From Arthrobacter pullicola (GTDB taxonomy: Bacteria > Actinomycetota > Actinomycetes > Actinomycetales > Micrococcaceae), in contig NZ_JACSQC010000009.1 in assembly GCF_014836875.1 (NCBI RefSeq), forward strand, positions 1 to 64,000: DNA of 64,000 bases, in the 5' to 3' direction. Below, piece after piece: positions 40,237 through 62,002 of the stretch (the stretch's first letter is position 1; every line of letters begins with the position of its first letter). The notes beneath the pieces are model-generated. The model was not told the DNA's origin and made no database searches. It worked only from the letters and a program-made list of their open reading frames with translations. A program made the translations under genes and the position numbers.

Positions 40237-40261
40237 CCGGGTCTGGCCCTGGTGCGGGGAC

Positions 40262-41068: not shown

Positions 41069-41082
41069 TGGTGCCTCCCGGT

Positions 41083-42956: not shown

Positions 42957-43044
42957 TTCTGTGATCCTTTCCGAACCAGCCGGTGAGGCGGCGGTTATCG
43001 GACTCGACTGTAACACCGCACTGTGAACGGTTGTTAAGTATTGG

Positions 43045-43080
43045 TAATTTGTTGTACGAAATTAGAAATCTGTGTCACAG
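43045..43080. promoter_or_regulatory. Two inverted repeats in the divergent sugar-acid promoter region
   Basis: TAATTT at 43045-43050 and AAATTA at 43059-43064 form a 6-8-6 inverted repeat; CTGTG-T-CACAG at 43070-43080 is a second, shorter palindrome. They lie in the 179-base gap between otnK and the dehydrogenase gene, in an AT-rich pocket, and are candidate sites for the DeoR-type repressor. Confidence 0.45.
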
Positions 43081-43135
43081 TGATTCCCGGCACGTTCGAA
43101 GGTCGAGCGGTGCTCACGAAGATTTGGACGCCACC

Positions 43136-44506: not shown

Positions 44507-44563
44507 ATCAATGACGTTCTTTACTTCCCCCGCCCCCGGGCTCGTCTCCTTTGAGCGCGCGGC

Positions 44564-45919: not shown

Positions 45920-45959
45920 GCCTAGATTCCCCGGACCGATCCCTGGTCCGGTAGACCGC

Positions 45960-46000
45960 AAAGGGCGGGCGCTGCTTTACGCAGCGCCCGCCTTTGTTTT
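45960..46000 (+). terminator. Rho-independent terminator after the MatC-type gene
   Basis: A 12-bp stem (45964-45975 with 45981-45992), a TTTAC loop, extended by AAA/TTT across a single-base bulge, then TTTGTTTT. A second hairpin, CCGGACC 45931-45937 with GGTCCGG 45945-45951, lies just before it. Confidence 0.88.
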
Positions 46001-46140
46001 CGCTCCGGGCCCCGTCCCAGGCCCCGCCCCGGGCAGCACCCATCCTGACTAATCCTGCACACCCCTGCCAGCGGGGCAAGCTGCCCACAGTAGGACGCGA
46101 TGCCGCCGGCCGCTGCGCTTCCCGGAGCCAAGCTGGGGGC

Positions 46141-46515: not shown

Positions 46516-48068
46516 TGGGGCTCGGACGCACCTACGCGGTGGGACTGACGGGCCTGGAAGGAAGAATTGTCGAGGTGGAGGCTGACATCGGCCAGAACCT
46601 TCCCGCCTTCATTCTGCTGGGCCTTCCCGACGCGTCCCTGAACGAGTCACGGGACCGGGTGAAATCGGCAGCAAAAAACTCCGGGCTTCCGCTGAGCCGG
46701 CGCAAGATCACGGTGAACCTCATGCCCGCTGATGTCCACAAGCGCGGCTCCGGCTTCGACCTGGCGATCGTTATGGCGGCGTTGGCGGCAGCGGGCGATG
46801 TGCGGGGCACAGACAGGACAGTGTTCCTTGCCGAGCTGGGACTGGACGGGAGGCTGCGTCCGCTGCGCGGCATCCTGCCCTCCGTCATGGCAGCCGTTGA
46901 CGCCGGCTTCCAAGACATCGTGGTGGCAGAAGCCAACGGCGCTGAAGCTTCACTGGTTCCGTCTGCCCGGGTAGCCCGGTTCACATCCCTGGCCGCTGTT
47001 GCCCAGCGGTTCGGGGCCGACCCTGAACAGCTCGTTTTTCCTGCCGAAACTCCCGCGGCCAAGCCCGGCGAGCGGACGGATGAGGGGCCCGCCCAGCCGC
47101 AGCACGGCGTCCCGGACCTCGCAGACATCGCCGGCCAGTCCGGGGCCCGGTTCGCGCTGGAGGTCGCTGCAGCCGGTGCACACCACCTGCTGATGACGGG
47201 TCCGCCCGGAGCGGGAAAGACGATGCTGGCCGAACGGCTGCCCGGCCTGCTGCCGGATTTGGAAGACACCGCGGCGATGGAGGTCACGGCCATTCATTCA
47301 CTCGACGTCCGGGGAGGTCCCTGCACCGGACTGATCCGCCGGCCGCCGTTCGAGAGTCCGCACCATACCGCCACCGCGGCGGCCGTGATCGGAGGAGGGG
47401 CAGGGATCCCGCGCCCCGGAGCCGCCTCCCGCGCCCACCGCGGAGTCCTCTTCCTGGACGAAGCACCCGAATACGAGGCACGGGTACTGGATGCCCTGCG
47501 CCAACCGCTGGAGAGCGGCACGCTGATACTGCACCGTGCCGCCGGGACGGCTGTGTACCCTGCCCGCTTCCAGCTGGTCCTGGCTGCCAACCCCTGTCCC
47601 TGCGGACTGGCCAGCGGAAAGGGCATCAACTGTACGTGCAGCGCACAGCAGCGGCGGCGCTACTTCGGCCGGCTCTCCGGACCGCTGCTGGACCGGGTGG
47701 ACCTGCAGCTTGAGATCCGCCGCGTTTCGCTGCCGGAGTTCGCTGCGGCGGGCGAAGCGGAGAAAACGGCGGATGTTGCCCGGAGGGTGGTCCACGCGCG
47801 GCAACGCCAGCGGGAACGGCTCAGCCCGTGGGGCTGTGAGACCAACGCGGAGGTCCCGGGGCAGGTACTGCGCGGTGCGCTCAAGCCGCCGGGGAACGCC
47901 ACCAAGGCCCTTGACCGCGCCATGGACCGGCAGTCCCTCACTGCCCGCGGATATGACCGGGTGCTGCGGGTGGCCTGGTCCATTGCCGATCTGGCGGGAC
48001 ATAACGGGCCCGACGCCGATGACATCGGTCAGGCCCTGGGCTTCCGGCAGCAGGCGGTGGCCGCATGA
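46515..48068 (+). CDS. YifB/ComM-type Mg-chelatase-like AAA+ ATPase
   Basis: A 517-residue AAA+ protein with an N-terminal Lon-protease-like domain (GLEGRIVEVEADIGQNLPAF), a central GPPGAGKTMLAERL Walker A (about residues 231-244), VLFLDEAPEYEARVLDALR Walker B and a four-Cys insertion (CPCGLASGKGINCTC). The homologue ComM (YifB) drives branch migration during natural transformation in Gram-negative bacteria. Coupled to yraN (TGATG) and to dprA (ATGA). Confidence 0.94.
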   Translation: MGLGRTYAVGLTGLEGRIVEVEADIGQNLPAFILLGLPDASLNESRDRVKSAAKNSGLPLSRRKITVNLMPADVHKRGSGFDLAIVMAALAAAGDVRGTDRTVFLAELGLDGRLRPLRGILPSVMAAVDAGFQDIVVAEANGAEASLVPSARVARFTSLAAVAQRFGADPEQLVFPAETPAAKPGERTDEGPAQPQHGVPDLADIAGQSGARFALEVAAAGAHHLLMTGPPGAGKTMLAERLPGLLPDLEDTAAMEVTAIHSLDVRGGPCTGLIRRPPFESPHHTATAAAVIGGGAGIPRPGAASRAHRGVLFLDEAPEYEARVLDALRQPLESGTLILHRAAGTAVYPARFQLVLAANPCPCGLASGKGINCTCSAQQRRRYFGRLSGPLLDRVDLQLEIRRVSLPEFAAAGEAEKTADVARRVVHARQRQRERLSPWGCETNAEVPGQVLRGALKPPGNATKALDRAMDRQSLTARGYDRVLRVAWSIADLAGHNGPDADDIGQALGFRQQAVAA

Positions 48069-49324
48069 ACGCGGCTGTTCCCGGGATCCTGCTGGCACGG
48101 GCTGCCCTGTCCCGCCTCATTGAACCTTCTGACACCGTTGGCCAGGCGCTCGTTATGGCCGTGGGTCCTGAAGCCGCTGCACGGATCGCGTCCGGCCGGC
48201 AAATGCCCGGTGCCGCGGACCGCCGTGGCCTCAGCGCCCTTCTGGAGGAGAACGGCATCCGTGGATCGGAACAAACATTGAACGAGGCGCTCGGCCGCTG
48301 GCGCCCACGCGCCGCTGGCCTCGCCCCGGAGCGCGACCTGGCCACGGTCTCCCGGTTCGGCGGAACGTTGCTGGTGCCGGAGGACCACCGCTGGCCCGGG
48401 GCGCTGGATGAGCTGGGGCTGGGGACGCCGTTCTGCCTCTGGACCAGGGGAGGCACCGCCATCCCGCCTGCGGCTCAGTGCGTCGCGGTGGTTGGCTCCC
48501 GGGATGCCACTGCCTACGGACTCTCCGTGACCGGGGACCTTGCCGCCGGTCTGGTGCAGCGCGGCCGGACGGTCATCTCCGGAGGCGCCTACGGCATTGA
48601 TGCGCAGGCGCACCGGTCGGCGCTCGCCGTGTCCGGCAGGGAGCCGGAGCCAGGAGAGCCTGCTCAGATTCCGACCCTCGCCGTGCTGGCCGGCGGGATC
48701 GACCGCTTCTACCCTGCGGGCAACGAGGACCTGCTCCGCGCTGTGGTGGACCGGGGCCTCATCCTCAGCGAAGTTCCGCCCGGGTCGGCGCCCACGCGCT
48801 GGAGGTTCCTGCAGCGCAACCGGCTCATCGCCGCCCTCAGCGCCGCCACCATCGTGGTGGAAGCACGCTGGCGTTCAGGTGCACTCAATACTGCCCATCA
48901 CGCGGCCGGGCTGGGGCGCGGTGTTGGTGCTGTTCCGGGACCGGTGTACTCCGCCAATTCCGCCGGCTGCCATCGGCTGCTACGCGACGGCAGTGCGGTC
49001 TGCGTGACAGACGCCGCCGAGGTAGTGGAGCTCTCCGATCCTCTTGGTCTCCCGTCCGCGGAACCAGCCGGGCCGGGCGCCGGTCCGATCGAGAACAGGC
49101 CTGACAAACGGGCGGACCACGACGGCCTGGCAGTCGAAGACATCCTGCTGCTGGATGCCCTGCCGCTGCGTACCGGATCCCCGGTGGAGAAGCTGGCCAT
49201 GGTCGCGGGCCTGGGTCTGCCGGCAGTGCGGGCCGGTCTGGCGCGCCTTGAACTCGAAGGCCTTGCCCGCCGCTCAAACACCGGCGCATGGCAGCGGGCA
49301 AGGCGAAGCGGCCCCGGCCGGTAA
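48065..49324 (+). CDS. dprA: DNA processing protein DprA
   Basis: DprA loads RecA onto incoming single-stranded DNA. The 419 residues hold the Rossmann core VAVVGSRDATAYG, VISGGAYGIDAQAHRSAL, VLAGGIDRFYPAGN and RNRLIAALSAATIVVEA, then a C-terminal winged-helix domain. An Ala-rich N-terminal domain (about 100 residues) precedes the core. Its ATG overlaps yifB by four bases. Actinobacteria carry it widely even when natural competence is unknown. Confidence 0.95.
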   Translation: MNAAVPGILLARAALSRLIEPSDTVGQALVMAVGPEAAARIASGRQMPGAADRRGLSALLEENGIRGSEQTLNEALGRWRPRAAGLAPERDLATVSRFGGTLLVPEDHRWPGALDELGLGTPFCLWTRGGTAIPPAAQCVAVVGSRDATAYGLSVTGDLAAGLVQRGRTVISGGAYGIDAQAHRSALAVSGREPEPGEPAQIPTLAVLAGGIDRFYPAGNEDLLRAVVDRGLILSEVPPGSAPTRWRFLQRNRLIAALSAATIVVEARWRSGALNTAHHAAGLGRGVGAVPGPVYSANSAGCHRLLRDGSAVCVTDAAEVVELSDPLGLPSAEPAGPGAGPIENRPDKRADHDGLAVEDILLLDALPLRTGSPVEKLAMVAGLGLPAVRAGLARLELEGLARRSNTGAWQRARRSGPGR

Positions 49325-49419: not shown

Positions 49420-49944
49420 ATGCGGACCCACAAAGTAATCACCTCACCCCTGGGCATTCTCACCCTCGTGGCCGAAGATGCCGTGCTTATCGCAATCGAA
49501 CCGGCGGCCCCGGACCCGGCCGCACCGGGAGCTGCCCGCTACGGGCTCTCTGCCGAGAACGGCTTTGAAGCGGTTGAACGCCAGCTCCAGGAATACTTCG
49601 AGGGACGGCGGTGCTGCCTCGACCTGCCGGCCAGCCAGCCAGGGACACCCTTTATGCAGCAGGTGTGGGCCACAGTCAGCTCCATCCCGTACGGCCAGAC
49701 GCGCAGCTACAAGCAGCTGGCGCTGGAACTCGGCGACGCAGCCAAGGCCCGCAGTGTCGGAGCAGCGCTGTCCCGCAACGCCCTGAACATCCTGGTGCCC
49801 ACTCACAGGGTGGTCGGCACCCGCGGAGCCCTGACGGGATACTCCGGCGGGGTGGACGCCAAACGCGTCCTCCTCACGCTGGAAGCCAGCCCCGGCAACG
49901 AAGCGCTCCGCCAGCAGTGTTCCGGAGCCGGTGTGCCTGCTTGA
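49420..49944 (+). CDS. Ogt/AGT-family DNA alkyltransferase homologue with catalytic Cys replaced by Thr
   Basis: A 174-residue protein with the full O6-alkylguanine transferase layout: N-terminal RNase-H-like domain, then TPFMQQVWATVSSIPYGQTR, ARSVGAALSRN with Arg111 as the arginine finger, and the active-site loop. The loop reads VPTHRVVG instead of PCHRV: Thr128 is encoded by ACT at 49801-49803. Suicidal alkyl transfer is therefore impossible as normally understood. Alkyltransferase-like proteins with Trp at this position bind lesions and recruit repair; a Thr form might act likewise or be decayed. Its last eight codons and stop are repeated at 60880-60912. Confidence 0.88.
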   Translation: MRTHKVITSPLGILTLVAEDAVLIAIEPAAPDPAAPGAARYGLSAENGFEAVERQLQEYFEGRRCCLDLPASQPGTPFMQQVWATVSSIPYGQTRSYKQLALELGDAAKARSVGAALSRNALNILVPTHRVVGTRGALTGYSGGVDAKRVLLTLEASPGNEALRQQCSGAGVPA

Positions 49945-49947
49945 AGC
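49915..49947 (+). repeat. Left copy of a perfect 33-bp direct repeat flanking the catabolic island
   Basis: Covers the last codons and TGA of the ogt-like gene plus AGC. It is identical base for base to 60880-60912 and diverges on both sides of the match. It contains GTTCCGGAGCCGGTGTGCC at its centre. Confidence 0.97.
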
Positions 49948-50024
49948 CCTGCTTGGCCTTTCTGATTCCTTTCCTGGAGCCGTCCGGAAAGTGCGAGCGT
50001 CGATGACCATCCGTGTGTTCCGTG

Positions 50025-50039
50025 CCGGAACAGTTCCGG
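50025..50039 (-). terminator. Short perfect palindrome at the end of the island operon
   Basis: CCGGAAC-A-GTTCCGG, two bases from the stop of the kinase gene. It lacks a T tract, so it is only a possible terminator for the leftward operon. Confidence 0.35.
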
Positions 50040-50040
50040 G

Positions 50041-51522
50041 TTAGCCGTTGACCCCGCCCGTTGCTGCCAGGACGTGTGAGATCTCCCGGGTTGCCGGATA
50101 GAGGGCGCGGTACAGCTGGTAGCGCTCGTTGTAGGCGTCTTCCAACGACGGGATGGGGACGACTGTCTGTGCTGGCGGGTTCCAGCCGTCGATACTGACG
50201 TCAGTGACGACGGCTGCCGCCAGGAGGGCCGCCCCGTAGCTGGCCCCGATCGTGATGGACGGGATGACCTGGGTCAGGCCGGTGACGTCGGAGACGATCT
50301 GTGCCCACAGGCCCCCTTGTGTACCTCCACCTGCAGCGACAATGCGCTTGGGCCTTACGCCAGCGGCCACCATGGCTTCGACGTTGTGCCTCACTCCAAA
50401 GGCCGTCGCCTCCAAAGCTGCCCGGTACAGATCCCCACGTGTGTGCGACAGCGTCAAACCGGCGATGACTCCCCGAGCAGCCGGATCCATGACGGGGGTG
50501 CGTTCACCGGCAAAGTACGGCAGCATCAGCAAGCCGCCGGCCCCGGGGCCCGAGCCGCGGGCTTCCGTCAGCAGATCGGCAAAATCCGGAGCTCCGAACA
50601 GGCCACGGAGCCAGCCTGTTATCGCACCGGATGTTGCCATGCCTCCGGCGAGGTTCCGGGTACCCGGGTATACACCGACGGTGCTCCAGAGGTTGGGTAC
50701 GGTGACTCTTTCCTCTGTGGTCGCCACCAGGAACATCGTTGTGCCGTACATGAGCATCAGATCGCCGGGGTTCTGCGCCCCAACACTCACGGCCTCGGTC
50801 CAGGCATCAATGGTCCCTGCGATGACCGGAATCCCTGCAGGCAGCCCAGTCTCGGCTGATGCGTCCGCGGTGATCGTGCCCGCGGTCTCATTCGCCCAAA
50901 GCAGCGGCGGAAGATCGATGCCGGGTGCAATCAGGTCTGCCCACGGCCGGTACCAGCCCTGGGCTGCGGTGTCGTAGAGCGGTGTGCACTGGCTGGCGGA
51001 GTGATGGTCCAGGACATACTGGCCACTGAGCTTCCACACGAGCCACGAGCTGGGCATGAACAGCCGGCGTGCCCGTTCCATCACCGCTGGTTCGTTGCCG
51101 GCCAGCCACGCCAGTTTCGGCCCGACGGCTTGGGAAGAGAGCGCGGAACCGGTTCGTTCCATGATCGCCGAGGCACCCAGCTGCTGGCTGAGGGCCTCGA
51201 TTTCGGCGGTAGCGCGGGTGTCGACTCCGTACAGAATGGCCGGACGCAGGGGAATCCCGCTGTCGTCGGTGACGAGCACGCAGGGCCCCATGCCGCTGAC
51301 CCCAACTGCGCGGATGTCAGCATTCGTCCCAGAGGTAAGCTCCTTGGCGATCGAGGAGAACTCCTCCCACCATTCATCGGCGCCCATTTCCACCCAGCCA
51401 GGGCGGGGACGTGACACCTCGTGGGTGCGTACGGCGGTGGCCAGGATGGTTCCGTCATCGCTGACCAGTACGCCCTTACTGCTGGAGGTGCCAATATCGA
51501 CACCTATTACCGCTGCTGTCAT
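50041..51522 (-). CDS. FGGY-family carbohydrate kinase (xylulokinase-like)
   Basis: A 493-residue sugar kinase: IGVDIGTSSSKGVLVSDDG (phosphate-1 loop), PGWVEMGADEWW, GVSGMGPCVLV, GTIDAWTEAVSVGA and AAGGGTQGGLWAQIVSDV (adenosine motif). The family phosphorylates xylulose, gluconate, fuculose and other polyols; specificity cannot be assigned. It overlaps the fucose-isomerase-like gene by four bases, so it should phosphorylate the ketose that the isomerase makes. Last gene of the island operon. Confidence 0.9.
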   Translation of the reverse strand: MTAAVIGVDIGTSSSKGVLVSDDGTILATAVRTHEVSRPRPGWVEMGADEWWEEFSSIAKELTSGTNADIRAVGVSGMGPCVLVTDDSGIPLRPAILYGVDTRATAEIEALSQQLGASAIMERTGSALSSQAVGPKLAWLAGNEPAVMERARRLFMPSSWLVWKLSGQYVLDHHSASQCTPLYDTAAQGWYRPWADLIAPGIDLPPLLWANETAGTITADASAETGLPAGIPVIAGTIDAWTEAVSVGAQNPGDLMLMYGTTMFLVATTEERVTVPNLWSTVGVYPGTRNLAGGMATSGAITGWLRGLFGAPDFADLLTEARGSGPGAGGLLMLPYFAGERTPVMDPAARGVIAGLTLSHTRGDLYRAALEATAFGVRHNVEAMVAAGVRPKRIVAAGGGTQGGLWAQIVSDVTGLTQVIPSITIGASYGAALLAAAVVTDVSIDGWNPPAQTVVPIPSLEDAYNERYQLYRALYPATREISHVLAATGGVNG

Positions 51523-53156
51523 GGCACGTTAACAGTTCCGCAGAGGTGGACCCGGACTCCCAGGCCGGCGAACAGGGCAGCCTTGGCCAGGAGGCCTTTA
51601 TCAGCTGTTTCCGCGTCAGGCGCGTAGACAACCTGCGCGTGGTTTGCCTTGTGGCGGCTCATGAACTGGTTTCGGTCCACACCGTGGAGCACAACGTGCG
51701 CGATCGGCCATTCGGGGTTCGTCGAATTCTTTCGGCGCCGGGTTTCTTCCTCGGGGAGTTCAACGACGCTGGCGCGGCCGATGTCCAGGTTGAGCTCGCC
51801 GTCGGCAATGAACAACCGGGACCAAACGATTTCGCCCGGCTTGGACACACCGTTGATCGTGCTGCCGCCCGCAGGAAAGAACACCTGCCCCTGACGCCAG
51901 CCCTCGGCATTCTGGTAGCCGCCGAGATGGGAAGGGGGAACCGATCCGGAGATTTCGTACACCCAGACGAACCGACCGTCGAAGTCCTCGCCCCAGCGGA
52001 CGTCGTGCAGCGTGGTCGCCGGGTCCAGTCCCATGGCTGTCCACACCCGGTTCGTTGCCAGGGCATCCACGGCAACACCTTCGTCAGCTTCGTTGAAGTG
52101 CGGAAGTGCCTGGCCCTCCCACAGGATGCGGGAACCGTCGCGTGAGGTTACCGGTGGGCGCTCGACGTTGTTCAGCAGCCCTTCGACCAGGTCACTGGCC
52201 GGGCAGAGGTCTTTGAGTCCCTGCTGGTACTGGATTCCGACGGCGTCCAGTCCGAAGTCATCGCTGAGGCGCAGGGCAGCGATATACATCTTGTACTGCC
52301 ACCTCAACTGGTTCTGCGTCAGTTCCGTTGCTTCGTCACTGCCGAGCCGGAACGTCATTCCCTTGTCCAGGAGCCAATCACCCACAGCGTCGGCTTCCCC
52401 GTCATCGACTGTGAGCATCTCGGCCCAAAGAGCGCTCTGGGAAAGACGCTCCTTGTAAATGCCGATCGGGTTGAGCAGCTCATCATCGATGATCGCGTTG
52501 TACATTCCCATGCACCCCTCATCGAAGACACCGATGATGGCCTTGTCCCTCAACAGTTCCTGTGCCAAGGCTTCACCAAGCTGCTTCTCAGGGCTGTCGG
52601 CCAGCTGAGGGAGCGGCCGGACATGGGAGTTGTCGTGGGGGACGCTGCCGGTCTCCACCCAGCTTCGGATGCCGTCCTTGAACCACTGGTCCTCAAAATC
52701 CACACTCCAGAGGGTCGAGTAGCGCAGACCCATCTTGGTCATACCCGCGTTGAGGCCCAGCAGACCGACCAGCCCGGGCCAGTCGGGGGCGAAGTTCGCC
52801 ACGGTGAGGATTGGCCCACGGTGGGTCCGCAGCCCGGCCAAGACGTGATGGCTGTACTGCCAGACTGCTTCGGCGACGACCAGCGGTGCATCCTCGGGGA
52901 TGTTCCTAAACACCTCCATGCCCATGCGCTGGCTGCGGATAAAGCCGTGGCCCAGACGGGAATCGACGTCGTTGGCCCGTTTCACCTCCCATCCCAGTTC
53001 CTCGAAGGCAGCTGTCAGATGCTTTTCCAGCTCCTGCTGCACCGGCCACCCAGCGACGTTTGCCGATTCGCGCAGGTCGCCGCTGGCGATCAGATAGGCG
53101 GTGTTCGGCTCGGCGACCGGTTTCTTCGGTGTTGAAGGTACGGCATATGCGGACAT
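51519..53156 (-). CDS. L-fucose isomerase family protein
   Basis: A 545-residue aldose-ketose isomerase related to FucI. GFIRSQRMGMEVFRNIP, GCMGMYNAIIDDELLNPIG followed by IYKERLSQSALWAEM, and the C-terminal LHGVDRNQFMSRHKANH match the family; FucI of Escherichia coli is about 590 residues, so some loops are shorter. AGGAG is 7 bases before the ATG at 53156. Natural substrates of the family include L-fucose, D-arabinose and L-galactose. It is coupled to the FGGY kinase. Confidence 0.88.
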   Translation of the reverse strand: MSAYAVPSTPKKPVAEPNTAYLIASGDLRESANVAGWPVQQELEKHLTAAFEELGWEVKRANDVDSRLGHGFIRSQRMGMEVFRNIPEDAPLVVAEAVWQYSHHVLAGLRTHRGPILTVANFAPDWPGLVGLLGLNAGMTKMGLRYSTLWSVDFEDQWFKDGIRSWVETGSVPHDNSHVRPLPQLADSPEKQLGEALAQELLRDKAIIGVFDEGCMGMYNAIIDDELLNPIGIYKERLSQSALWAEMLTVDDGEADAVGDWLLDKGMTFRLGSDEATELTQNQLRWQYKMYIAALRLSDDFGLDAVGIQYQQGLKDLCPASDLVEGLLNNVERPPVTSRDGSRILWEGQALPHFNEADEGVAVDALATNRVWTAMGLDPATTLHDVRWGEDFDGRFVWVYEISGSVPPSHLGGYQNAEGWRQGQVFFPAGGSTINGVSKPGEIVWSRLFIADGELNLDIGRASVVELPEEETRRRKNSTNPEWPIAHVVLHGVDRNQFMSRHKANHAQVVYAPDAETADKGLLAKAALFAGLGVRVHLCGTVNVP

Positions 53157-53256
53157 TTTGTTGCTCCTGTAGGTCTGGGAAGGGGCTGAAGGCCCGTTTC
53201 CAAGGCTCCGGCTGCTTGGTGCAGCCGGTGGCCCGTTGGAAAAGGCGTCCAGGGCG

Positions 53257-53703
53257 TTAGCGGGACGCAGCAAGCCCCGTGACGGTGACGTTGAATTCCG
53301 CCGCCGCTCTTTCAACGACATCGGCATCGCCGGAGGGAGGCAGGCCGCTGATGCCGATGGCTCCGACGATCACGCCGTTGATGAACAGGGGAGTGCCCCC
53401 CAGAGTGGGTGTCAGTTCCGGATCGTTGAGTCTGTCCAAATCGATCTGTCCGGCAGCGGCCGCCTCCTTTACCTCGGCGGTCGGCCGCCTGAGAATCAGA
53501 GCGGTATACGCCTTGCGGGCGGCCAGTTTCCGTGGGAGCGCACCACAGGAATCCTGTGCGCCAAAGGCGATGAGTTCTCCGAAGCTGCCGACTATGGCGC
53601 AGGCGACCCCAACCGGGACTCCGTCATGCAGGTGGGTGCGGCCGAGGACGGCCTGGAGAATGCTGCTGGCTGACTCAAAGCTCAGTGTTGGTCTTTCGAA
53701 CAT
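53257..53703 (-). CDS. GlcG/HbpS-type heme- or cofactor-binding-fold protein
   Basis: A 148-residue protein of the GlcG/HbpS (DUF336) family: VGVACAIVGSFGELIAFGAQD, ARKAYTALILRR, GGTPLFINGVIVGAIGISG. Members often sit in catabolic operons next to dehydratases and transporters; HbpS binds heme, but GlcG-type functions are unclear. GGAGGGG is 5 bases before the ATG at 53703. A GTG at 53742 overlapping the upstream stop (GTGA) is the alternative start. Its AxxDSC segment (AQDSCGA) contains a lone Cys. Confidence 0.8.
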   Translation of the reverse strand: MFERPTLSFESASSILQAVLGRTHLHDGVPVGVACAIVGSFGELIAFGAQDSCGALPRKLAARKAYTALILRRPTAEVKEAAAAGQIDLDRLNDPELTPTLGGTPLFINGVIVGAIGISGLPPSGDADVVERAAAEFNVTVTGLAASR

Positions 53704-53738
53704 GCCGGCCCCTCCCTGGCCTGCGCTGACGCCGGCAT

Positions 53739-54647
53739 TCACAGCTGTGCCGCAGCTTCGTGGATGCCAGCAAGCAGACGGTCCAGTTCCTTGCGCTGGA
53801 CATCATTCAGCGGTTTGAACGGTTCACGCAGATCGCCGCAGTCGAGCACGCCGTCGCCGGCGAGGTACTTCGCTGCCCTGAAGACGCCTTGGCTGACAAG
53901 CTCCTCAACCGTGTTGTTGATCTGCTCTTGAACAAGCCGGGCCCCGGGCAAATCGCCGGTCTCAAACAGCGCCCTGGTGCGAAGGAACAGCTCGGGCTGA
54001 ACGTTCACGGTTGTTCCAATGGTGGCTCTCGCCCCGGCCGCCAGGCTGGAGAGATAGATCTCGTCAAAACCGTTGAAGAAGACCTTCTCCGGATAGGCGG
54101 CTGTCATGCGTTCGAGCGAGTACAGGTCATGCGCGGTGTGCTTCACTCCCAGGACCTGCTCCTGGTCCAGGAGGGGGCCGGCAAGAGTCTTGTCGAACTG
54201 GACCTGCGTGAACTGAGGGATGTTGTAGATGATGACGGGCAGGCTCGTCGCTTCCATGACCCGGTTGTAATACCCGAGGATTTCCTCGGCCGTGAAGCGG
54301 TAGTAATAGGGTGGGATCAGCGAGACGGCATCAGCTCCGGCCGCTTCGGCATCCTTTGCCAGCGCAATGGCGTCCGCGGTGCGTATCGTGCCCACATGGG
54401 CGATGACCGGTGCCCGGCCGGCTGCCGTTTGCACCACGGTGCGGACAATCTCGGTGCGCTCATCAAGGCTCAGCAGGAGGCCCTCACCGGAGGAACCGCA
54501 GCAGTAAAACCCTTCCACGCCCCGGCCCAGCTGAAATTCCACGAGTTTAGACAACGTGGCAAAGTCAATCGACTCGTCAGCACGCATCGGCGACACAAGT
54601 GCGGAGAAGATCCGCTCAAACCGTGAGTAGTCCTGACTGGCTACCAT
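53739..54647 (-). CDS. DHDPS/N-acetylneuraminate lyase-family aldolase
   Basis: A 302-residue class I aldolase of the DapA superfamily. The Schiff-base Lys169 lies in VLGVKHTAHD and Tyr141 in VIIYNIPQ; the pyruvate-binding loop reads CCGSSGEGLL (50-59), closer to lyases than to DapA. In this context it probably cleaves or dehydrates a 2-keto-3-deoxy sugar acid. The ATG at 54647 overlaps the end of the SDR gene. Confidence 0.88.
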   Translation of the reverse strand: MVASQDYSRFERIFSALVSPMRADESIDFATLSKLVEFQLGRGVEGFYCCGSSGEGLLLSLDERTEIVRTVVQTAAGRAPVIAHVGTIRTADAIALAKDAEAAGADAVSLIPPYYYRFTAEEILGYYNRVMEATSLPVIIYNIPQFTQVQFDKTLAGPLLDQEQVLGVKHTAHDLYSLERMTAAYPEKVFFNGFDEIYLSSLAAGARATIGTTVNVQPELFLRTRALFETGDLPGARLVQEQINNTVEELVSQGVFRAAKYLAGDGVLDCGDLREPFKPLNDVQRKELDRLLAGIHEAAAQL

Positions 54648-55468
54648 GCAGTCCACCCCCCATCAACGATGAGATTGGCGCCGGTCATGTACGTCGACGC
54701 CTGGGAGATGAGGAAGACGACGGAACCGTTGTATTCGGAGGCGTCGGCCATCCTGCCGATTGGCATCCGGCTGGTGTAGTTGGCCTGGAACTTGGCATCC
54801 TGCGTTTCCCGGCCCACTCCGGAGGGCGTGAGGGTGTTGACCCTGATTCCGTGCCGTCCCCAATACGTGGCACAGTACCGGGTGAGGTTGTAGATGCCCG
54901 ATTTGGCGGCACTGTAGGCCACCGGCTTCACGAAGGGGACACCGGTCTCCTCCCCGCGGTAGGCGTAAATGTCCTGGACGGGGGAGACCATTCCGTAGAT
55001 GGAACCCACATTGACGATCGATCCGCCCTTTCCGGCCCGGCGCATGCGGCTTCCGACGGCCTGCACCATGAGGAACGTCCCGGTCAGATTGACGTCAACG
55101 ACTTCACGGAAAATTTCGACTGGGAATTCTTCAAACGGGCCGGAGACTTCCGGCGGGGCGCTTGGCTGTGTGTCCAGGCCGGCGTTGTTGATGAGGGCAT
55201 CAGGTACGCCCCACAGCGACTCCAGGGAATCGAGGGCTTCCTCGATGGTGGGTTTTTTCGTGATGTCGACAGAGAAGAAAGCGAGCCGGTCGCTTCCATG
55301 GATGTCCTCAAAGACTTCCTTGACCTTGGCCTCCGATACATCCCGGGCGAATACAGCCACCTTGGCGCCGCGTCCGTGGAGCTCCTGAACGAATTCGGCT
55401 CCGATCTGCCCGAGGCCGCCGGTCACTACGACAATCTTCTCTTCAACTGAGAACAACTGGTCATTCAT
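54641..55468 (-). CDS. Short-chain dehydrogenase/reductase
   Basis: A 275-residue classical SDR: TGGLGQIG (16-23) coenzyme loop, NNAG (94-97), Ser156, and Tyr185-x-x-x-Lys189 in AYSAAKSG. A 15-residue insertion (about 164-182) before the Tyr is unusual. Acidic residues after the second strand are not obvious, so NAD versus NADP is open. In the operon it would oxidise the sugar or a keto-deoxy acid intermediate. Confidence 0.9.
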   Translation of the reverse strand: MNDQLFSVEEKIVVVTGGLGQIGAEFVQELHGRGAKVAVFARDVSEAKVKEVFEDIHGSDRLAFFSVDITKKPTIEEALDSLESLWGVPDALINNAGLDTQPSAPPEVSGPFEEFPVEIFREVVDVNLTGTFLMVQAVGSRMRRAGKGGSIVNVGSIYGMVSPVQDIYAYRGEETGVPFVKPVAYSAAKSGIYNLTRYCATYWGRHGIRVNTLTPSGVGRETQDAKFQANYTSRMPIGRMADASEYNGSVVFLISQASTYMTGANLIVDGGWTAW

Positions 55469-55576
55469 CTTTGTATGGTTCCTATTTCGTGTATCTGGTC
55501 CGTCGGCACCCCGGTAGGCATGCGTTGGACATCAAGTGGGGAGCAACCCGGTGAGTCCTGCGCTCGCAGGCTGGTG

Positions 55577-56692
55577 CTAAAGACCGCCGGTCAGTGCCGG
55601 GATAGCGACCTCGTTTGCGGCAAGCTTTTCCCGGTTGAAGGCCAAACCATGGCCCGGAGTGCTGGACGGGGTGTAGTGCCCGTTGCGGAGCTCGCCGGTT
55701 CCTGGCAGGAGCACTCCGAGATCCGTGAGGGTTCCGCCGTCGGTGTATTCGGCGAGGTAGATGTTGGGAACGGCACATAGGACGGTGGCGCTGAGTTCCA
55801 TGATGAAGTGCGGTGCCATGGGCAGGTTCCAGGCGCGTGCCATCGCCGCGATGTCCATGTACGGGGTGATGCCGCCCACCCGGCCGATGTCGGCCTGGAC
55901 GAAGTCACACGTGTTGCTGGAGAAGTAGTGGTTGAACTGCTGGACGGTGTATAGATTCTCGCCGAGGCCGATGGGGCCGTCGGCGAGCTCGCGCAGCCGC
56001 TTGTGGCCGATGATGTCATCCACGGGCAGCGGCTCTTCGATCCAGGTCAGGTTGAATTGTTCGAATCGTTTGAACGCCTGGACGGCCTGGGGAAGTGTCC
56101 ACCCCTGATTTGCGTCAATCATTAGCGGGTACGGGCCGACCGCCTCACGGAGCTTGGCGAGACGGTACACGTCCTCTTCCAGGTCCGGTTTTCCGACCTT
56201 GACCTTGCCGGCGGCGAAACCGTCGGCCTTCCAGCCCTGGACCTGGTCGATAACTTCTTCGATGGACAGGTGCAGGTTGATGCCGCTGCCATACAAGGGT
56301 GTCTTGTCGCGGCAGCGCCCCAGCATATCTGCCAGGGACATGTTGGCAGTCTTGCCCATGATGTCCCAATACGCGATGTCCAGTCCGGCCAAGGCAAGAG
56401 TAGTGATGCCGCCGGTGCCGTTGAACCGGAGGTATTTCCAGGCCTTGTCCCAGAGGGCGCGGGGGGAGACTTCCTGGCCGATGAGGATCGGGGCAACTTC
56501 GGAGAGCATCGAGACTATGGTTGCGCCACCCACCCCGGAAGTGTGGCTGAAACCGGTGCCCGTCAGGCCCGTGTCGGTGGTGACGTCGACAAGGATTATC
56601 TCGATGTGGGTAACGAAGTTGATCTGGTCGCCCCAATCGCCCTTGGGAAGCTTCATACGGCACAGTTTTACGTCAATATTTTCGATTTTCAT
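55577..56692 (-). CDS. Enolase-superfamily sugar-acid dehydratase (mandelate racemase group)
   Basis: A 371-residue TIM-barrel enzyme. Lys163-x-Lys165 (KVKVG) is the base pair after strand 2; Asp193 (MIDANQGW), Glu219 (WIEEPL) and Glu245 (GLGENLY) bind Mg; Asp268 and His295 (APHFIMEL) form the second catalytic dyad. That arrangement fits acid-sugar dehydratases such as fuconate, galactonate or gluconate dehydratase; the exact acid cannot be read from the sequence. The product would suit the DHDPS-family aldolase two genes on. Confidence 0.92.
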   Translation of the reverse strand: MKIENIDVKLCRMKLPKGDWGDQINFVTHIEIILVDVTTDTGLTGTGFSHTSGVGGATIVSMLSEVAPILIGQEVSPRALWDKAWKYLRFNGTGGITTLALAGLDIAYWDIMGKTANMSLADMLGRCRDKTPLYGSGINLHLSIEEVIDQVQGWKADGFAAGKVKVGKPDLEEDVYRLAKLREAVGPYPLMIDANQGWTLPQAVQAFKRFEQFNLTWIEEPLPVDDIIGHKRLRELADGPIGLGENLYTVQQFNHYFSSNTCDFVQADIGRVGGITPYMDIAAMARAWNLPMAPHFIMELSATVLCAVPNIYLAEYTDGGTLTDLGVLLPGTGELRNGHYTPSSTPGHGLAFNREKLAANEVAIPALTGGL

Positions 56693-56801
56693 TGTGAGTC
56701 CGTTCTGGTCTGCTGGTTTGGTTGGGCTGCCGGTCCGGCCGCCTGGCCTGTAAAGGCCGGTCTGTCCTGGGTGCTGTCGGAGATGGGTACCAGCCCGGAG
56801 G

Positions 56802-57713
56802 TCATCCCTTCACTGCCCCGGCTGTGAGTCCTTCGATCAGGTTCCGCTGGACGAGCATGAAGCCGAGGAGCACGGGGATCGCGGCAACCACGCCACCTGC
56901 GGTCAGGAGATCCCATCTGATCTGGTACTCGCCGATAAACAGATGCAGGCCAACAGGGACGGTGTGCGTCTGGTTGGACTGGGTGAAGGTCAGGGCATAG
57001 AGGAATTCGTTCCAGGAGAAGATGAAGATGTACGTGCCTGCTGCTGTCAGGCCCGGCTTCATCAGGGGAAGCAGGATGTACCTGACCATCTGGAAGGCGC
57101 TGCACCCGTCGATGCGGGCGGCTTCATCCAGCGAAGCCGGCAGGGAATCAAGGAATCCCTTCAACAGCCACACGGCGAACGGTGTGGCGAAGGTGGTGTT
57201 GATGAGGATCAGCCCCGGGATGGTATCGAGCAGGCCAAACTGCCGCAGCTCTCCCTGGAGTGGAATCACCAGCAGCACCGCTGGGAACAGCTGGGCGATC
57301 AGGAGCGACGTCAGGACTGTCTGGCGGCCACGGAACCGGAAACGGGACAAACTGATGGCGGTTGTTGTGGCAGCCAGCAGGGAGACGACGACGGTGCCAA
57401 ACGCGACCATGGCGCTGTTCCCCAGGAACTGGAAGAAAGGTGTTCCTGCCGCAAGGTCTTTGTAGGCATCGAAGGTGGGGTTCTCTGGGAAGACCTGGGA
57501 TCCAGGAGCCAGCAGTTCCTGCTGGGGTGTCAACGAGGTCAGCAGCATAACCACGTAAGGCCCCAGGACCAGGATGAGCCAGACACCGACTGCAGCGATG
57601 ACAAATCCTTTGCCTACGCTTTTGCGCGCGGATGGCTGCCTGGGCCTGGTGCCCTGGACAGGCGGTGCGCTGCGGTACTTCTCGGCTGGCGGGTGCACAG
57701 TTGCTGCGCTCAC
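56802..57713 (-). CDS. ABC sugar transporter permease (MalG/UgpE type)
   Basis: A 303-residue inner-membrane permease with six helices. The EAA loop reads EAARIDGCSAFQMVRYILLP, the contact for the ATPase. It begins MSAATVHPPAEKYRSAPP, a cytoplasmic tail. Coupled to the other permease by a four-base overlap. Together with the binding protein it forms a CUT1-class importer. Confidence 0.93.
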   Translation of the reverse strand: MSAATVHPPAEKYRSAPPVQGTRPRQPSARKSVGKGFVIAAVGVWLILVLGPYVVMLLTSLTPQQELLAPGSQVFPENPTFDAYKDLAAGTPFFQFLGNSAMVAFGTVVVSLLAATTTAISLSRFRFRGRQTVLTSLLIAQLFPAVLLVIPLQGELRQFGLLDTIPGLILINTTFATPFAVWLLKGFLDSLPASLDEAARIDGCSAFQMVRYILLPLMKPGLTAAGTYIFIFSWNEFLYALTFTQSNQTHTVPVGLHLFIGEYQIRWDLLTAGGVVAAIPVLLGFMLVQRNLIEGLTAGAVKG

Positions 57714-58639
57714 TTTTCCTCTCCCTTCGCGGACAGGCGGACGTAGATCACGATGAAGACCATGAGCACGGCAGCTTGGATGACGGCGTAGGCGGCGCCG
57801 GTGCCGAAATCACCGGACTTGTAGGCCGTCAGGTACGCCTGCAGGGGCAGCGTGGTTGTCGCTTCCGCGGGTCCGCCTCCGGTGAGGATGAAGGCGAGAT
57901 CGACGTAGTTGGCTGTCCAGATGATCCGCAGAATTGTGGTGATCAGAATAGTTGGAAGGATCTTGGGTGCGACGACGTTCCAGAAGACTCCCCACGGTCC
58001 GCATCCGTCCATGCGTGCAGATTCCTTGAGTTCCCCGGAGACCCCCTGGAGTGCAGCGAGGATCATGACAGCGAAGAAAGGTACGCCCTGCCAGACATCG
58101 ACCATGATCAGCGTCGGCAAGGCTGTTTCAGGGCTGCTCAACCAGGTGATGGGTGACTGTATGATGCCCAGGTTGAGGAGCGCGGAGTTGATCAGGCCGT
58201 GGTTGGGGTCCAGCAGCCAGAGCCAGATCAAGGCAACCAGAACACTGGGGGTTGCCCAGGGGATCATGACCAGGCCGCGGACAGCTCCGCGAAGGGGGAT
58301 CCGCTGGTTCAACAGGAGCGCACCGCACATACCAAGGACAAGCTGCAGCCCGACGGCACCAAAAGTCCACGCTGCCGAAGTCAGAGCGTAATGCCCGAAT
58401 TTCTCGCCGGTGAAGATCTCCAGATAATTGGAGAAACCAACGAAGCCGGTGATGCCGCCTAGAATTCCGGCTTCATTGAGAGACAGCCACAGTGAACTGA
58501 GAACCGGGTAGAGAACGAATACGCCGAGAAGAATCAAAGTGGGAGCCAGATAAATGAACGGCTCCACCTTCTGCTGGAACTTTTGGCGTCTGCGGCGTAC
58601 AGCCGGCGGGGCAGCAGGCCTGACGGTGGTCGCTAACAT
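57710..58639 (-). CDS. ABC sugar transporter permease (MalF/UgpA type)
   Basis: A 309-residue permease with six helices and the EAA motif ESARMDGCGPWGVFWNVVAP. PFIYLAPTLILLGVFVLYPV is the first helix, standard for CUT1 partners. It starts two bases after the stop of the binding-protein gene and pairs with the downstream MalG-type subunit. Confidence 0.93.
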   Translation of the reverse strand: MLATTVRPAAPPAVRRRRQKFQQKVEPFIYLAPTLILLGVFVLYPVLSSLWLSLNEAGILGGITGFVGFSNYLEIFTGEKFGHYALTSAAWTFGAVGLQLVLGMCGALLLNQRIPLRGAVRGLVMIPWATPSVLVALIWLWLLDPNHGLINSALLNLGIIQSPITWLSSPETALPTLIMVDVWQGVPFFAVMILAALQGVSGELKESARMDGCGPWGVFWNVVAPKILPTILITTILRIIWTANYVDLAFILTGGGPAEATTTLPLQAYLTAYKSGDFGTGAAYAVIQAAVLMVFIVIYVRLSAKGEEK

Positions 58640-58641
58640 GG

Positions 58642-59901
58642 TCAGCGCCTCAGATCTTCAGCGAGCTTCTTCATCATCTGCTCACTGGTGGACTGGTTCA
58701 GGAAAGCGCTCTGGATGGCGGGGCTCCACGTCTGATTGGCCACGGCGGCCGTACCCTTGACTGCAGGCCAGCTCAGCGCTCCTGCCTGAGCTGCGATGGC
58801 GACCCGGTAAGCCTCGTCGCCGCTGAAGAACGGATCCTCGGCGGCAGATTTCAACACCGGAAGCTGGCCCTGCTTGGACGTGCTGATCTTAACCATCGGA
58901 TCCTTCGTGGCGAGCCAGGAGATCCATTCGAAGGCCTGCTGCTGCTTCTTGGAGGATTGCAGAACGACGTTGCCGCTCATAGATCCCAGGGTGCGTGCAG
59001 CTGCGGGGTCCTTCGACGGCATTGGGATTACGCCGAGGTCATCGCCGAGCCCTGAGCGCAGTGCACTGAGCGATCCGGTGTGGTGGATCAGCATTCCGGT
59101 TTGACCGCCCTGGAAGTTAGCGATCACCTGGGCAAAGGCCGCAGTCGTTGAACCGGGGGGAGCTGCGTTCAATTTCGTCTGCAGGTCGAGGTACTGCTGG
59201 TTGACCGAGATGGCGGTCGGATCGTCAAGAACGACGTTGCCGGCCTCATCGACCATGCGTGCCCCACCTGAGAACATCCAAGCTGCCCATTGGTCCTGAC
59301 CGCCTGCTCCGCCACGGACGTCAATGCCGAACCGGCCCGTCGATGCGTCTGTGAGCTTCTCGGCGGCCCGCAGCACGTCCTCATGCGTACGGGGAGCATC
59401 CAGGCCCGCGTCCTTGAAGAAGCTCTTGCGGTAATACATGTACAGCGTGACGAACTGGTGGGGCAGCATGTAAAGACTGTCGCTGCCCGGGACTTTGCCC
59501 GTAGCGTACAGCTCGGCTAGGACATCTTCCTGCCCATCCCATTTACTGACCATGTCGTCAAGGGATGCGATGGCATTTTGTCCAACAAACTGCCCGAGCC
59601 ACCAATCCTTGAACCGGCAGGCATCCGGCCCGCCCCCGCTGCTGAGCGCCGTCAGCAGCTTGTCCTGGTACTGGGCCAGCGGGATGATCTGCAGGTTGAC
59701 TTTGAAGCCTGCGTTCAGACCGTTGAACTGATCGGCGAGCTGCTGCCACGTTTGATCGGTGGCGTCATCCTGCCAGAGCCAGTACTCAAGGTCTCCACCG
59801 GTCTGGTCCGCTGAAGATGATGAACCGCAGGCTGCCAGCGATGGCAGGGTGAGTGCCAGGGAACCGGCCGCGGCGGCCTTGAGGAAAGTGCGACGCTCCA
59901 T
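58642..59901 (-). CDS. ABC sugar-binding lipoprotein, probable Tat substrate
   Basis: A 419-residue extracellular solute-binding protein, family 1. The signal MERRTFLKAAAAGSLALTLP has a twin-arginine start and is followed by the lipobox LAAC, so it is probably exported folded and lipid-anchored. GLGDDLGVIPMPSKDP and RTLGSMSGNVVLQSSKKQQQ resemble other CUT1 binders. AAGGAG lies 7 bases before the ATG. No ATPase gene accompanies the system. Confidence 0.92.
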   Translation of the reverse strand: MERRTFLKAAAAGSLALTLPSLAACGSSSSADQTGGDLEYWLWQDDATDQTWQQLADQFNGLNAGFKVNLQIIPLAQYQDKLLTALSSGGGPDACRFKDWWLGQFVGQNAIASLDDMVSKWDGQEDVLAELYATGKVPGSDSLYMLPHQFVTLYMYYRKSFFKDAGLDAPRTHEDVLRAAEKLTDASTGRFGIDVRGGAGGQDQWAAWMFSGGARMVDEAGNVVLDDPTAISVNQQYLDLQTKLNAAPPGSTTAAFAQVIANFQGGQTGMLIHHTGSLSALRSGLGDDLGVIPMPSKDPAAARTLGSMSGNVVLQSSKKQQQAFEWISWLATKDPMVKISTSKQGQLPVLKSAAEDPFFSGDEAYRVAIAAQAGALSWPAVKGTAAVANQTWSPAIQSAFLNQSTSEQMMKKLAEDLRR

Positions 59902-59941
59902 TGCGAGGTCTCCTTATATTGGTGGGAGGGGGGATAACTGA

Positions 59942-60634
59942 CTAGCGCGGGCTGGCCTTGATGTCCTGCTCTGCAAGGTGGGCCAACCGGTTTCGGACAT
60001 CGAAGAAGTGGATGTCCAGGCGGTGGGCGGCCAGTTGGGGATCTCCGGTCTCTATGGCGTCGACGATCACCGCATGCAGGGCAGCGGTGTGGGGGAGGTC
60101 CTTACCGGTCGTGATTGTTGAACTTGCTGTTTTAAAGAAGTGCCAGAATCCACTGAGAATCCCGCTGAGGGTTCGGTTTTCCAGGCCTTCGTAGAGCATG
60201 GCGTGAAACTGCTCATCTTCATCCAGGAAGGTCTTGCCCTCTTCTGCACGCGCTCTCATGGCGTCGGTGAGACCGCGCAGCTGCTTCAGGCGGCGTGCAC
60301 TCATTGTTTGGAAGGCCGCAGGAAAAAACTGGGTTTCCAAGGCTTGACGCATTTCCAGAATCTCTAGGAGGCTGTCGTGATCGTAGGGGAGCGTCATTCC
60401 GATATGTTGGCCAAACACGGCGGGGTCAAAGCCCCTCATCCGGCGCCTGGCGCCCTGGCGTGCCTCGACGAATCCAAGGGCCTGCAGGGCACACAGCACT
60501 TCTCGCACTGACTGGCGGCTCATGTTCAATTTCAGTGCCAGCTGCGGTTCAGTTGGAAGCGGATCCCCCGGTTGGACACCAAGGTCGCGCAGCAGCCGCA
60601 CCATGCGGACTTGATGATCTTCCAGAGACGCCAT
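59942..60634 (-). CDS. GntR/FadR (FCD)-family transcriptional regulator
   Basis: A 230-residue regulator: a winged-helix domain (LPTEPQLALKLNMSRQSVRE, about 26-45, then ALQALGFVEARQG) and a C-terminal all-helical FCD domain with metal/ligand His residues in FHAML, LHAVIVDAI and IHFFDV. GGAGAGAAG precedes the ATG at 60634; the open frame reaching back across xerC is a shadow. It heads the leftward operon and sits under three FadR-type palindromes, so it probably represses its own operon and responds to a sugar acid. Confidence 0.92.
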   Translation of the reverse strand: MASLEDHQVRMVRLLRDLGVQPGDPLPTEPQLALKLNMSRQSVREVLCALQALGFVEARQGARRRMRGFDPAVFGQHIGMTLPYDHDSLLEILEMRQALETQFFPAAFQTMSARRLKQLRGLTDAMRARAEEGKTFLDEDEQFHAMLYEGLENRTLSGILSGFWHFFKTASSTITTGKDLPHTAALHAVIVDAIETGDPQLAAHRLDIHFFDVRNRLAHLAEQDIKASPR

Positions 60635-60656
60635 GACTTCTCTCCATTGAGGGGAA

Positions 60657-60669
60657 CTTGTCCGACAAG
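60657..60669. promoter_or_regulatory. FadR-type operator 1
   Basis: CTTGTCCGACAAG, a perfect 13-bp palindrome fitting the FadR-family consensus TNGTNNNACNA, 22 bases upstream of the gntR start; suited to autorepression. Confidence 0.7.
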
Positions 60670-60763
60670 ACTCGGAGCTCCGATTCCGTTTAGTGATGCT
60701 AAGCACAGCATTGAGTCCGACGCTGCGCAATGAAAAAGGGTCTATTACGTTCTGAGAAGGTCT

Positions 60764-60776
60764 AACGTCGGACAAG
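60764..60776. promoter_or_regulatory. FadR-type operator 2 (imperfect)
   Basis: AACGTCGGACAAG, matching the right half of the other sites and 10 of 11 consensus positions when the constant bases and spacing are compared. Its centre is 33 bases from site 3, about three helical turns. Confidence 0.55.
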
Positions 60777-60796
60777 TTGATGCTGCCGGACCCAAA

Positions 60797-60809
60797 CTTG
60801 TCGGACAAG
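60797..60809. promoter_or_regulatory. FadR-type operator 3
   Basis: CTTGTCGGACAAG, a perfect 13-bp palindrome with the TNGTNNNACNA core, the most distal of the three sites. Confidence 0.7.
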
Positions 60810-60879
60810 GAGACAAATCCCAGTCCGAAGAGGGTCCACTCTGTGCGCAGTGAAGCACCATCTGCCGCCGCAGGAGCTC

Positions 60880-60912
60880 CAGTGTTCCGGAGCCGGTGTG
60901 CCTGCTTGAAGC
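60880..60912 (+). repeat. Right copy of the 33-bp direct repeat flanking the catabolic island
   Basis: Identical to 49915-49947. It carries the last eight sense codons and stop of the ogt-like gene without the rest of the gene, directly upstream of xerC. Bases on both sides differ from the left copy. Confidence 0.97.
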
Positions 60913-60940
60913 TGTCCCGAAAAGCGGGGAAGGTAGGACG

Positions 60941-62002
60941 GTGAGCAACACCGGCGGAACAACAGAAGGCGCGGAGGAAGTGGCAGGCGCCTCCGCAAGG
61001 ACCGCCGGGAAGATCCCCGCCCAAAAGACAGAGCCCGGGCGCGGGTCCACCCAAGCTGCGAAGCCGGAGGCTGCTCGATCCGCAGCTTCCCGGCCGGCTG
61101 AGTTCAGCCAGGCCCTTGAGTCCTTCTGCAGCTATCTCTCCTCGGAGCGGGCCCGCTCCGAACATACGGTCCGCGCGTACGAGGGTGACATTGCCGGACT
61201 CCTGGACTATGCGGCCCAGCAAGGCCTCACCACGCTGGCCGAAATTGACCTGCATCTGCTGCGCGGCTGGCTGGGTGCGCTCAACGAAGCAGGGCTCGCA
61301 AGGGCAACCCTTGCCCGCCGGGCAGCTACCGCCCGGTCCTTCACCGGATGGGCGCTGCGGGAGGAGAAGATCCAGGCGGACCCTGCGCTCCGGCTCAAAG
61401 CTCCAAAGCGGTCCAAGACCCTGCCGGGAGTGCTGCGTCCGGCGCAGCTGGAGGCCCTCTTTGAAACGCTGGCGGCGGCGGCAGCGGAAGGCGGGGCACT
61501 GGCCCTCCGTGACCGGGCGCTGGTGGAACTGCTCTATGCCACGGGCATCCGTGTGGGGGAGCTTGCAGGGCTGGACGTTGACGATCTCGATCTGGACCGG
61601 CGCACCCTGAGGGTCCTCGGCAAAGGCAACAAGGAACGGACAGTTCCCTACGGTCTTCCGGCCGCCCTGGCGGTGGACGACTGGCTCCGCCGGGGGCGGC
61701 CCGACTTCGCCGGTCCGGACAGCGGCCCGGCTTTGTTCCTGGGCCAACGGGGACGGCGGATCGATCCACGCCAGGTCCGCGCCGTCACCTCCGCGCTGTT
61801 TGAGTCCCTGGGGGACACCTCGGCCAGCGGTCCCCACGCCCTGCGGCACAGCGCCGCAACGCACCTGCTGGACGGCGGAGCTGACCTGCGCAGTGTCCAG
61901 GAGATCCTGGGGCACAGCAGTCTCGCAACGACCCAGCTCTACACCCATGTCTCAGTGGACCGGCTCCGCAGGAGCTACCAGCAGGCGCACCCGCGTGCGT
62001 GA
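60941..62002 (+). CDS. xerC: Tyrosine recombinase XerC
   Basis: XerC with XerD resolves chromosome dimers at dif. The 353 residues have a ~45-residue Ala/Gly-rich N-terminal extension, a SAM-like core-binding domain (FCSYLSSERARSEHTVRAYE) and the catalytic domain: Arg in ATGIRVGELAGL, HALRHSAATHLL, then LGHSSLATTQLYTHV with the nucleophile Tyr. GTG start at 60941 behind AAGG/AGGA. It follows dprA in many actinobacteria, so it is the housekeeping enzyme rather than an island integrase. Confidence 0.94.
   Translation: MSNTGGTTEGAEEVAGASARTAGKIPAQKTEPGRGSTQAAKPEAARSAASRPAEFSQALESFCSYLSSERARSEHTVRAYEGDIAGLLDYAAQQGLTTLAEIDLHLLRGWLGALNEAGLARATLARRAATARSFTGWALREEKIQADPALRLKAPKRSKTLPGVLRPAQLEALFETLAAAAAEGGALALRDRALVELLYATGIRVGELAGLDVDDLDLDRRTLRVLGKGNKERTVPYGLPAALAVDDWLRRGRPDFAGPDSGPALFLGQRGRRIDPRQVRAVTSALFESLGDTSASGPHALRHSAATHLLDGGADLRSVQEILGHSSLATTQLYTHVSVDRLRRSYQQAHPRA

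Follow-up and report, generated by a model that had tools for sequence, protein, structure and literature searches.

Judged by comparison with its relatives, the junction between ogt and xerC in the window (the whole stretch of DNA analysed, 64 kb) is the site of a lineage-specific gain: 10,932 bp were inserted and 33 bp were duplicated at the 3' end of the ogt-like gene. What was gained is a whole catabolic operon; its ends are sharp and there is no mobility gene among its ten genes. The reading that fits best is site-specific integration by a recombinase since lost or acting in trans, and it is held tentatively, with slightly less than even confidence.

The insertion and its repeat

The match between the window's contig and the relative G012 stops at 49947 and restarts at 60880, and the two parts of the alignment share exactly 33 bases; this points to an insert of 10,932 bp (49948..60879) accompanied by a 33-bp duplication. 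Against a second relative, G005, the corresponding overlap is 32 bases. On the left of the island lie a dprA-like gene (48065..49324, plus strand; the label is presumed, being that of the first-pass annotation) and the ogt-like gene (49420..49944, plus strand), and on the right xerC (60941..62002, plus strand; PF00589). On either side the contig is collinear with G012 and G005, which bears out the earlier description of dprA-ogt and xerC as running rightward outside the repeats, as in relatives.

The search of the genus covered 29 genomes, the window's own among them. In the 28 others, here called the relatives, ogt and xerC are adjacent and the insert is missing from their junction (28/28; the end of ogt is uncertain at locus L021). 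The ogt-like stop lies 330 bp or less from the xerC match, and no element separates the two genes in any of the 28. The empty junction that had been proposed as a check is therefore present throughout the relatives sampled. When the modelled empty site is aligned to the seven nearest loci, the segment is single in L004 to L007; L008 to L010 have one good copy, with imperfect extra units before it.

The 33 bases at 49915..49947 recur identically, in direct orientation on the plus strand, at 60880..60912, as the first-pass annotation had claimed; each copy lies at an edge of the G012 alignment. This is the longest exact direct repeat of the window. The runner-up is a 26-bp local overlapping tandem at 19847, and the chance expectation for a 33-bp pair is, by a crude estimate, 7e-10 per window. 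Further copies had been suggested as a thing to look for; at three mismatches or fewer, the 3.62-Mb genome contains these two, both on the window's contig, and no third. The repeat consists of nine codons of the ogt-like gene and its stop (CAG TGT TCC GGA GCC GGT GTG CCT GCT TGA), followed by AGC. The earlier count of eight codons plus the stop is one codon short. The final nine codons and the stop of the ogt-like gene lie in the left copy; at the insertion site, both its reading frame and its stop are thereby restored.

Among 395 family genomes, the window's is the only one with the 19-bp core of the repeat (two mismatches or fewer) as a same-strand pair at a single locus. Four others (G006, G014, G022 and G146) have two core matches each at this threshold, far apart or on different contigs. 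The repeat and the island are read from a draft assembly of 15 contigs.

End repeats of other large indels were surveyed over about 400 kb, by comparing contig C15 and 300 kb of contig C9 with the matching stretches of G012 and G005, and G012 with G005. This gave 35 pairwise rows with a length difference of about 700 bp or more, hand-merged to about 19 distinct events; in many rows unmatched sequence stands on both sides, as in a replacement, which makes these rows less clean tests. Up to 150 bp from the ends, the longest exact direct repeat measures 33 bp in the two rows that represent the ogt island, a single event; in the remaining 33 rows (about 18 events) it measures 7 to 11 bp. In one 697-bp event (two rows) the alignments overlap by 11, and the longest exact repeat is 9 or 10. 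A random-shift control was contaminated where both shifts coincided (values of at least 36), and the observed values are relied on here. Long end repeats are not the normal mode of DNA gain in these genomes. The repeat at the ogt island is three times longer than at any other surveyed large indel; it is therefore the mark of a particular process and not of the usual gain of DNA.

Two other variable regions were noted. A second catabolic cluster lies upstream in the window (40238-46045); it is found in the window's genome and in G012, is absent in G005, and has no exact end repeat longer than 8 bp. Going by their translations, its genes are presumably a regulator and aldolase-like, sugar-acid kinase-like, dehydrogenase-like and permease genes. 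G012 has 14.8 kb (G012:C2:173612-188377) where the window's genome has 1.1 kb, also with no exact end repeat longer than 8 bp.

Origin of the duplication

Upstream of xerC, the stretch TTGAAG, 17 bp, GAAGGT (60906..60934, plus strand) probably serves as a leaderless promoter of this gene; this role is assigned from ungapped conservation in 27 of 28 loci, those having the core. Its probable -35 box, TTGAAG, falls within the right repeat, and at the empty site it overlaps with the stop of ogt; the GTG start of xerC follows six bases past the probable -10. Exact GCCTGCTTGA is found upstream of xerC in 27 of the 28 relatives and is missing in L021. In the ungapped alignment of 27 loci on the core, where core positions 0 to 9 are conserved by construction, all 27 also match the window at -6, -4 and -2 before the core, at the A, G and T of the hexamer 17 bases past TTGAnn, and at the GTG six bases further. 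A sigma-70 scan did not call the xerC promoter; it gave one site in the region against 2.0 expected.

Over 60906-60943 of the window, the pattern TTGAnn, 17 bp, nAnnGT, 6 nt, GTG is strictly conserved, being shared by 27 of the 28 relatives. In 19 relatives the core contains the ogt stop, and in eight the stop lies upstream of it; the core is missing in one. In another genus (g10; 101 genomes with an xerC match), the 30 loci listed contain no ogt match, and no core at one mismatch or fewer within 700 bp; dprA matches lie beside xerC in 29 of them.

Where a stop codon overlaps the promoter of the next gene, only duplicating insertions keep both genes intact, and restoration of the gene end alone is not proof of an integrase. 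Since the ogt stop overlaps the probable xerC -35 box, an insertion that spared both genes would have had to duplicate the overlap; by our estimate, the duplicated stretch would need to be at least about 16 bp long. The end-restoring duplication could then be explained by selection, because of this same overlap. The likeness to integration into a gene's 3' end, to which the first-pass annotation had drawn attention, stands in so far as the ogt end is restored; the step from there to an integrase is weakened by the promoter-like element.

No recombinase or transposase was found by Pfam among the ten operon genes, which also include no integrase, relaxase or conjugation genes, and there is no tRNA in the window; the earlier report of no integrase, transposase or tRNA holds to this extent. 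PF00589 has two matches in the genome, the XerC beside the island and a protein on contig C13 that is probably XerD; PF07508 has no match in the genome. On these grounds an autonomous integrase-bearing island is rejected. A composite or unit transposon is likewise rejected, since, when the inner 100 bp of the two island ends are compared, no exact inverted match exceeds 6 bp, and the operon has no transposase.

Xer-like recombination had been put forward as a route because xerC adjoins the island, and the draft state of the assembly could suggest an artefact instead; both are hardly credible. A dif-type site with zero mismatches to the typed dif consensus lies on a different contig, C9. The repeat matches dif at 11 positions, no better than shuffled sequence (mean 10.9, p 0.61), and an element integrated by Xer at dif is thus rejected. 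A false join would be unlikely to yield a repeat that agrees with the genuine end of ogt on one side and with the element upstream of xerC on the other; the flanks, moreover, are both collinear with the two compared relatives, G012 and G005.

Perfect repeats of such length at a gene end ordinarily result from site-specific integration, and gene 3' ends whose frame and stop are restored are common integrase targets. It is for this reason that site-specific integration fits best. A putative circular form would have recombined site-specifically with the chromosome at the ogt-like 3' end, leaving the 33-bp common core at each end of a cargo-only island. Its recombinase would have been encoded on a since-deleted part of the element, or supplied by another, now absent element, and the island would now be stranded without it; such a lost or helper recombinase is plausible but unproven. 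This reading is supported by the exact duplication, the empty site in 28 relatives, the position at a gene 3' end and the GC content of the island (61.4%, against 66.3% in the remaining contig). Counted against it are the lack of an integrase, of a third copy, of a convincing attP-like match in IMG/VR, phages or plasmids and of any element at the site in 28 relatives; the non-coding ends of the island, which measure no more than 93 bp on the left and 245 bp on the right; and a duplication that selection could explain. That the operon and the 33-bp core form a mobile bare cassette, a circle integrated in trans at the overlap of ogt stop and xerC promoter with a duplication that spares both genes, is a long shot.

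Because neither such a recombinase nor an attP was found, and because the two functions overlap, two other histories have to be reckoned with. One is capture during break repair, which is unlikely and still deserves a hearing: a staggered break or template switch would have taken up a linear 11-kb fragment, fill-in would have duplicated 33 bp, and survivors would have been selected for an intact ogt stop and xerC -35 box. Bacterial end joining can take up foreign DNA, and the genome has one Ku gene. The need to duplicate about 16 bp or more, the position of the stop within the core in most relatives (19/28), the -35/-10/GTG layout fixed in the 27 core-bearing loci and the lack of any integrase beyond the Xer pair are all consistent with such capture. 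It accords less well with the other large indels (about 18), none of which has an end repeat longer than 11 bp, or with island ends that fit a whole operon closely, as is rare for random fragments.

The other history, which is improbable, has two steps. Slippage would first have duplicated the ogt-tail/xerC-promoter segment in tandem, uncoupling the two functions; foreign DNA would then have entered between the copies without making a repeat of its own, in keeping with the lack of long repeats at other large indels. Traces of tandem structure occur at loci with no island: in three ogt-xerC spacers, selected by eye from the 28, self-similarity is 66% at period 25 in L010 (0/1000 shuffles), 52% at period 26 in L008 (p 0.012) and, weakly, 45% at period 20 in L009 (p 0.083). 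Tandem Repeats Finder, however, gives no array in L008 or L010, and no genome of the genus was seen to have the 19-bp core in tandem at two mismatches or fewer. The eight relatives with the ogt stop upstream of the core are in line with such uncoupling. It speaks against this history that the insert directly abuts both repeats and that no spacer or incomplete copy is left, except a possible 8-mer: the first eight bases of the island repeat CCTGCTTG of the 33-mer, a degree of sharing also found in 5% of random island 60-mers.

A homologous single crossover would give the same anatomy and a perfect 33-bp repeat, and would require no integrase in this strain. RecA would have recombined a circle of the operon and the 33-bp ogt tail that had earlier been excised from the same locus of a related strain, so that the repeat would have originated in a different strain. 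This presupposes that an island was already present at the locus, and none is found in the 28 relatives; moreover, 33 bp is short for RecA. This route is quite unlikely.

Comparison with known islands

Islands that are flanked by repeats and lack an integrase are already known; the ogt-xerC island is a well-delimited fresh example, not a new kind. The microcin H47 island of E. coli is described as a 13-kb island that excises and integrates, as detected by PCR, without a recombinase of its own (PMC3191183). The follow-up describes tests of the 16 K-12 site-specific recombinases, RecET and RecA-dependent pathways, none of which was implicated according to its account, and states that a clone of the deleted form could not be recovered (PMC5426353). 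Like the H47 island, the island of the window is small, cargo-only and flanked by direct repeats, and it has no recombinase of its own (PMC3191183, PMC5426353). In contrast to the single perfect 33-mer of the window, the H47 repeats are described as extensive and imperfect, with four recombination segments. Mobility of the H47 island was seen by PCR; that of the island of the window is putative. If it is mobile, it would be an actinobacterial counterpart of the E. coli H47 island.

Cis-mobilizable elements (CIMEs) are described as decayed ICEs or IMEs (PMC5704250). In Streptococcus salivarius, CIMEs with cargo, 1.2 to 13 kb in size, reportedly keep their att sites and lie at gene 3' ends; ten of these or their like carry carbohydrate-metabolism enzymes, and the authors judge CIMEs very prevalent in this species (PMC7563491). 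Going by its sequence, the ogt-xerC island fits the anatomy of a CIME: it has direct repeats, which are putative att sites, at a gene 3' end, the site is empty in relatives, and none of its ten genes encodes an integrase, a relaxase or a conjugation function. It thus shares with CIMEs the gene 3' end, the retained att-like repeats, the absence of integrase and transfer genes, and the size range of the cargo (PMC5704250, PMC7563491). It differs in that CIMEs, in those surveys, are mostly in tandem with ICEs or IMEs. No parent ICE or IME, and no integrase or attP for the ogt site, was found in the 28 relatives, IMG/VR, phages, plasmids or the Pfam matches of the genome.

Pseudomonas islands downstream of tmRNA are reported to have 14-bp direct repeats at a gene 3' end, and one of them to need a helper phage for transfer (PMC12595487). 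They resemble the island of the window in their short direct repeats and their position. Unlike it, they are described as encoding a tyrosine integrase that is required for excision (PMC12595487). Word searches of the literature gave no report of an ogt insertion site and no paper that joins ogt, attB, integrase and integration site.

The cargo operon and its donor

The ten genes between the repeats form one leftward operon (all on the minus strand) that includes its own regulator; a single complete sugar-acid operon had been read here, and Pfam families are seen for all ten genes. At the left end are a FGGY carbohydrate kinase (50041..51522; PF00370/PF02782) and an L-fucose isomerase-like protein (51519..53150, start uncertain) with a PF02952 C-terminal domain and 72% amino acid identity to L108. 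These are followed by a HbpS-like protein (53257..53742; PF03928), a DHDPS/NAL-family aldolase or dehydratase (53739..54656; PF00701), a short-chain dehydrogenase (54641..55468; PF13561) and an enolase-superfamily sugar-acid dehydratase (55577..56692; PF13378/PF02746). The nearest NCBIfam model of the latter is L-talarate/galactarate dehydratase, at 244 bits, which is below the cut-off of 500. Transport is represented by two ABC sugar permeases (56802..57713 and 57710..58639; both PF00528) and a solute-binding protein (58642..59901; PF01547). The regulator, of the GntR/FCD type (59942..60634; PF00392/PF07729), lies at the right end.

A check of GC and codon bias had been proposed, and its outcome is divided. 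The overall GC of the island differs from the remaining contig, as given above; third-position GC of the island genes is 0.68 to 0.79, close to the value of 0.77 in dprA, ogt and xerC. Composition therefore does not prove foreign origin.

When 4.1 kb of island DNA was searched against 394 other family genomes, one match was found at E 1e-60 or better, in pieces of about 69% identity. This match, in a different genus, is the nearest whole operon found: its proteins are 35 to 72% identical, the order of isomerase and kinase is swapped, and the HbpS-like gene is unmatched. Since even this operon is so divergent and rearranged, the donor is presumably not among the sampled genomes. With the sugar-acid dehydratase as query, 395 other genomes of the order gave four matches at E 1e-120, of 57 to 64% identity. 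No other match within the genus exceeds 43% identity, and the best of 33 loci in the genome_contigs set are 48 to 50% identical.

A plasmid or phage donor is rejected on the searches made. The island has no megablast match among plasmids. Plasmid relatives of the dehydratase number 125 records, all below 60% identity; two Klebsiella pneumoniae plasmids carry the closest, at 58%. For the repeat itself, the strongest plasmid match (27 bp, 88.9%, E 0.9) is on a plasmid of Arthrobacter, in the vicinity of IS3 and IS21 genes, and is taken as chance. The exact 19-bp core is absent from IMG/VR, and all matches of the left junction to phages have E values of at least 1.

Two palindromes CTTGTCNGACAAG are found upstream of the GntR/FCD regulator. 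They are CTTGTCCGACAAG (60657..60669) and CTTGTCGGACAAG (60797..60809), each a possible operator by its sequence; a half site of the palindrome lies near 60767.
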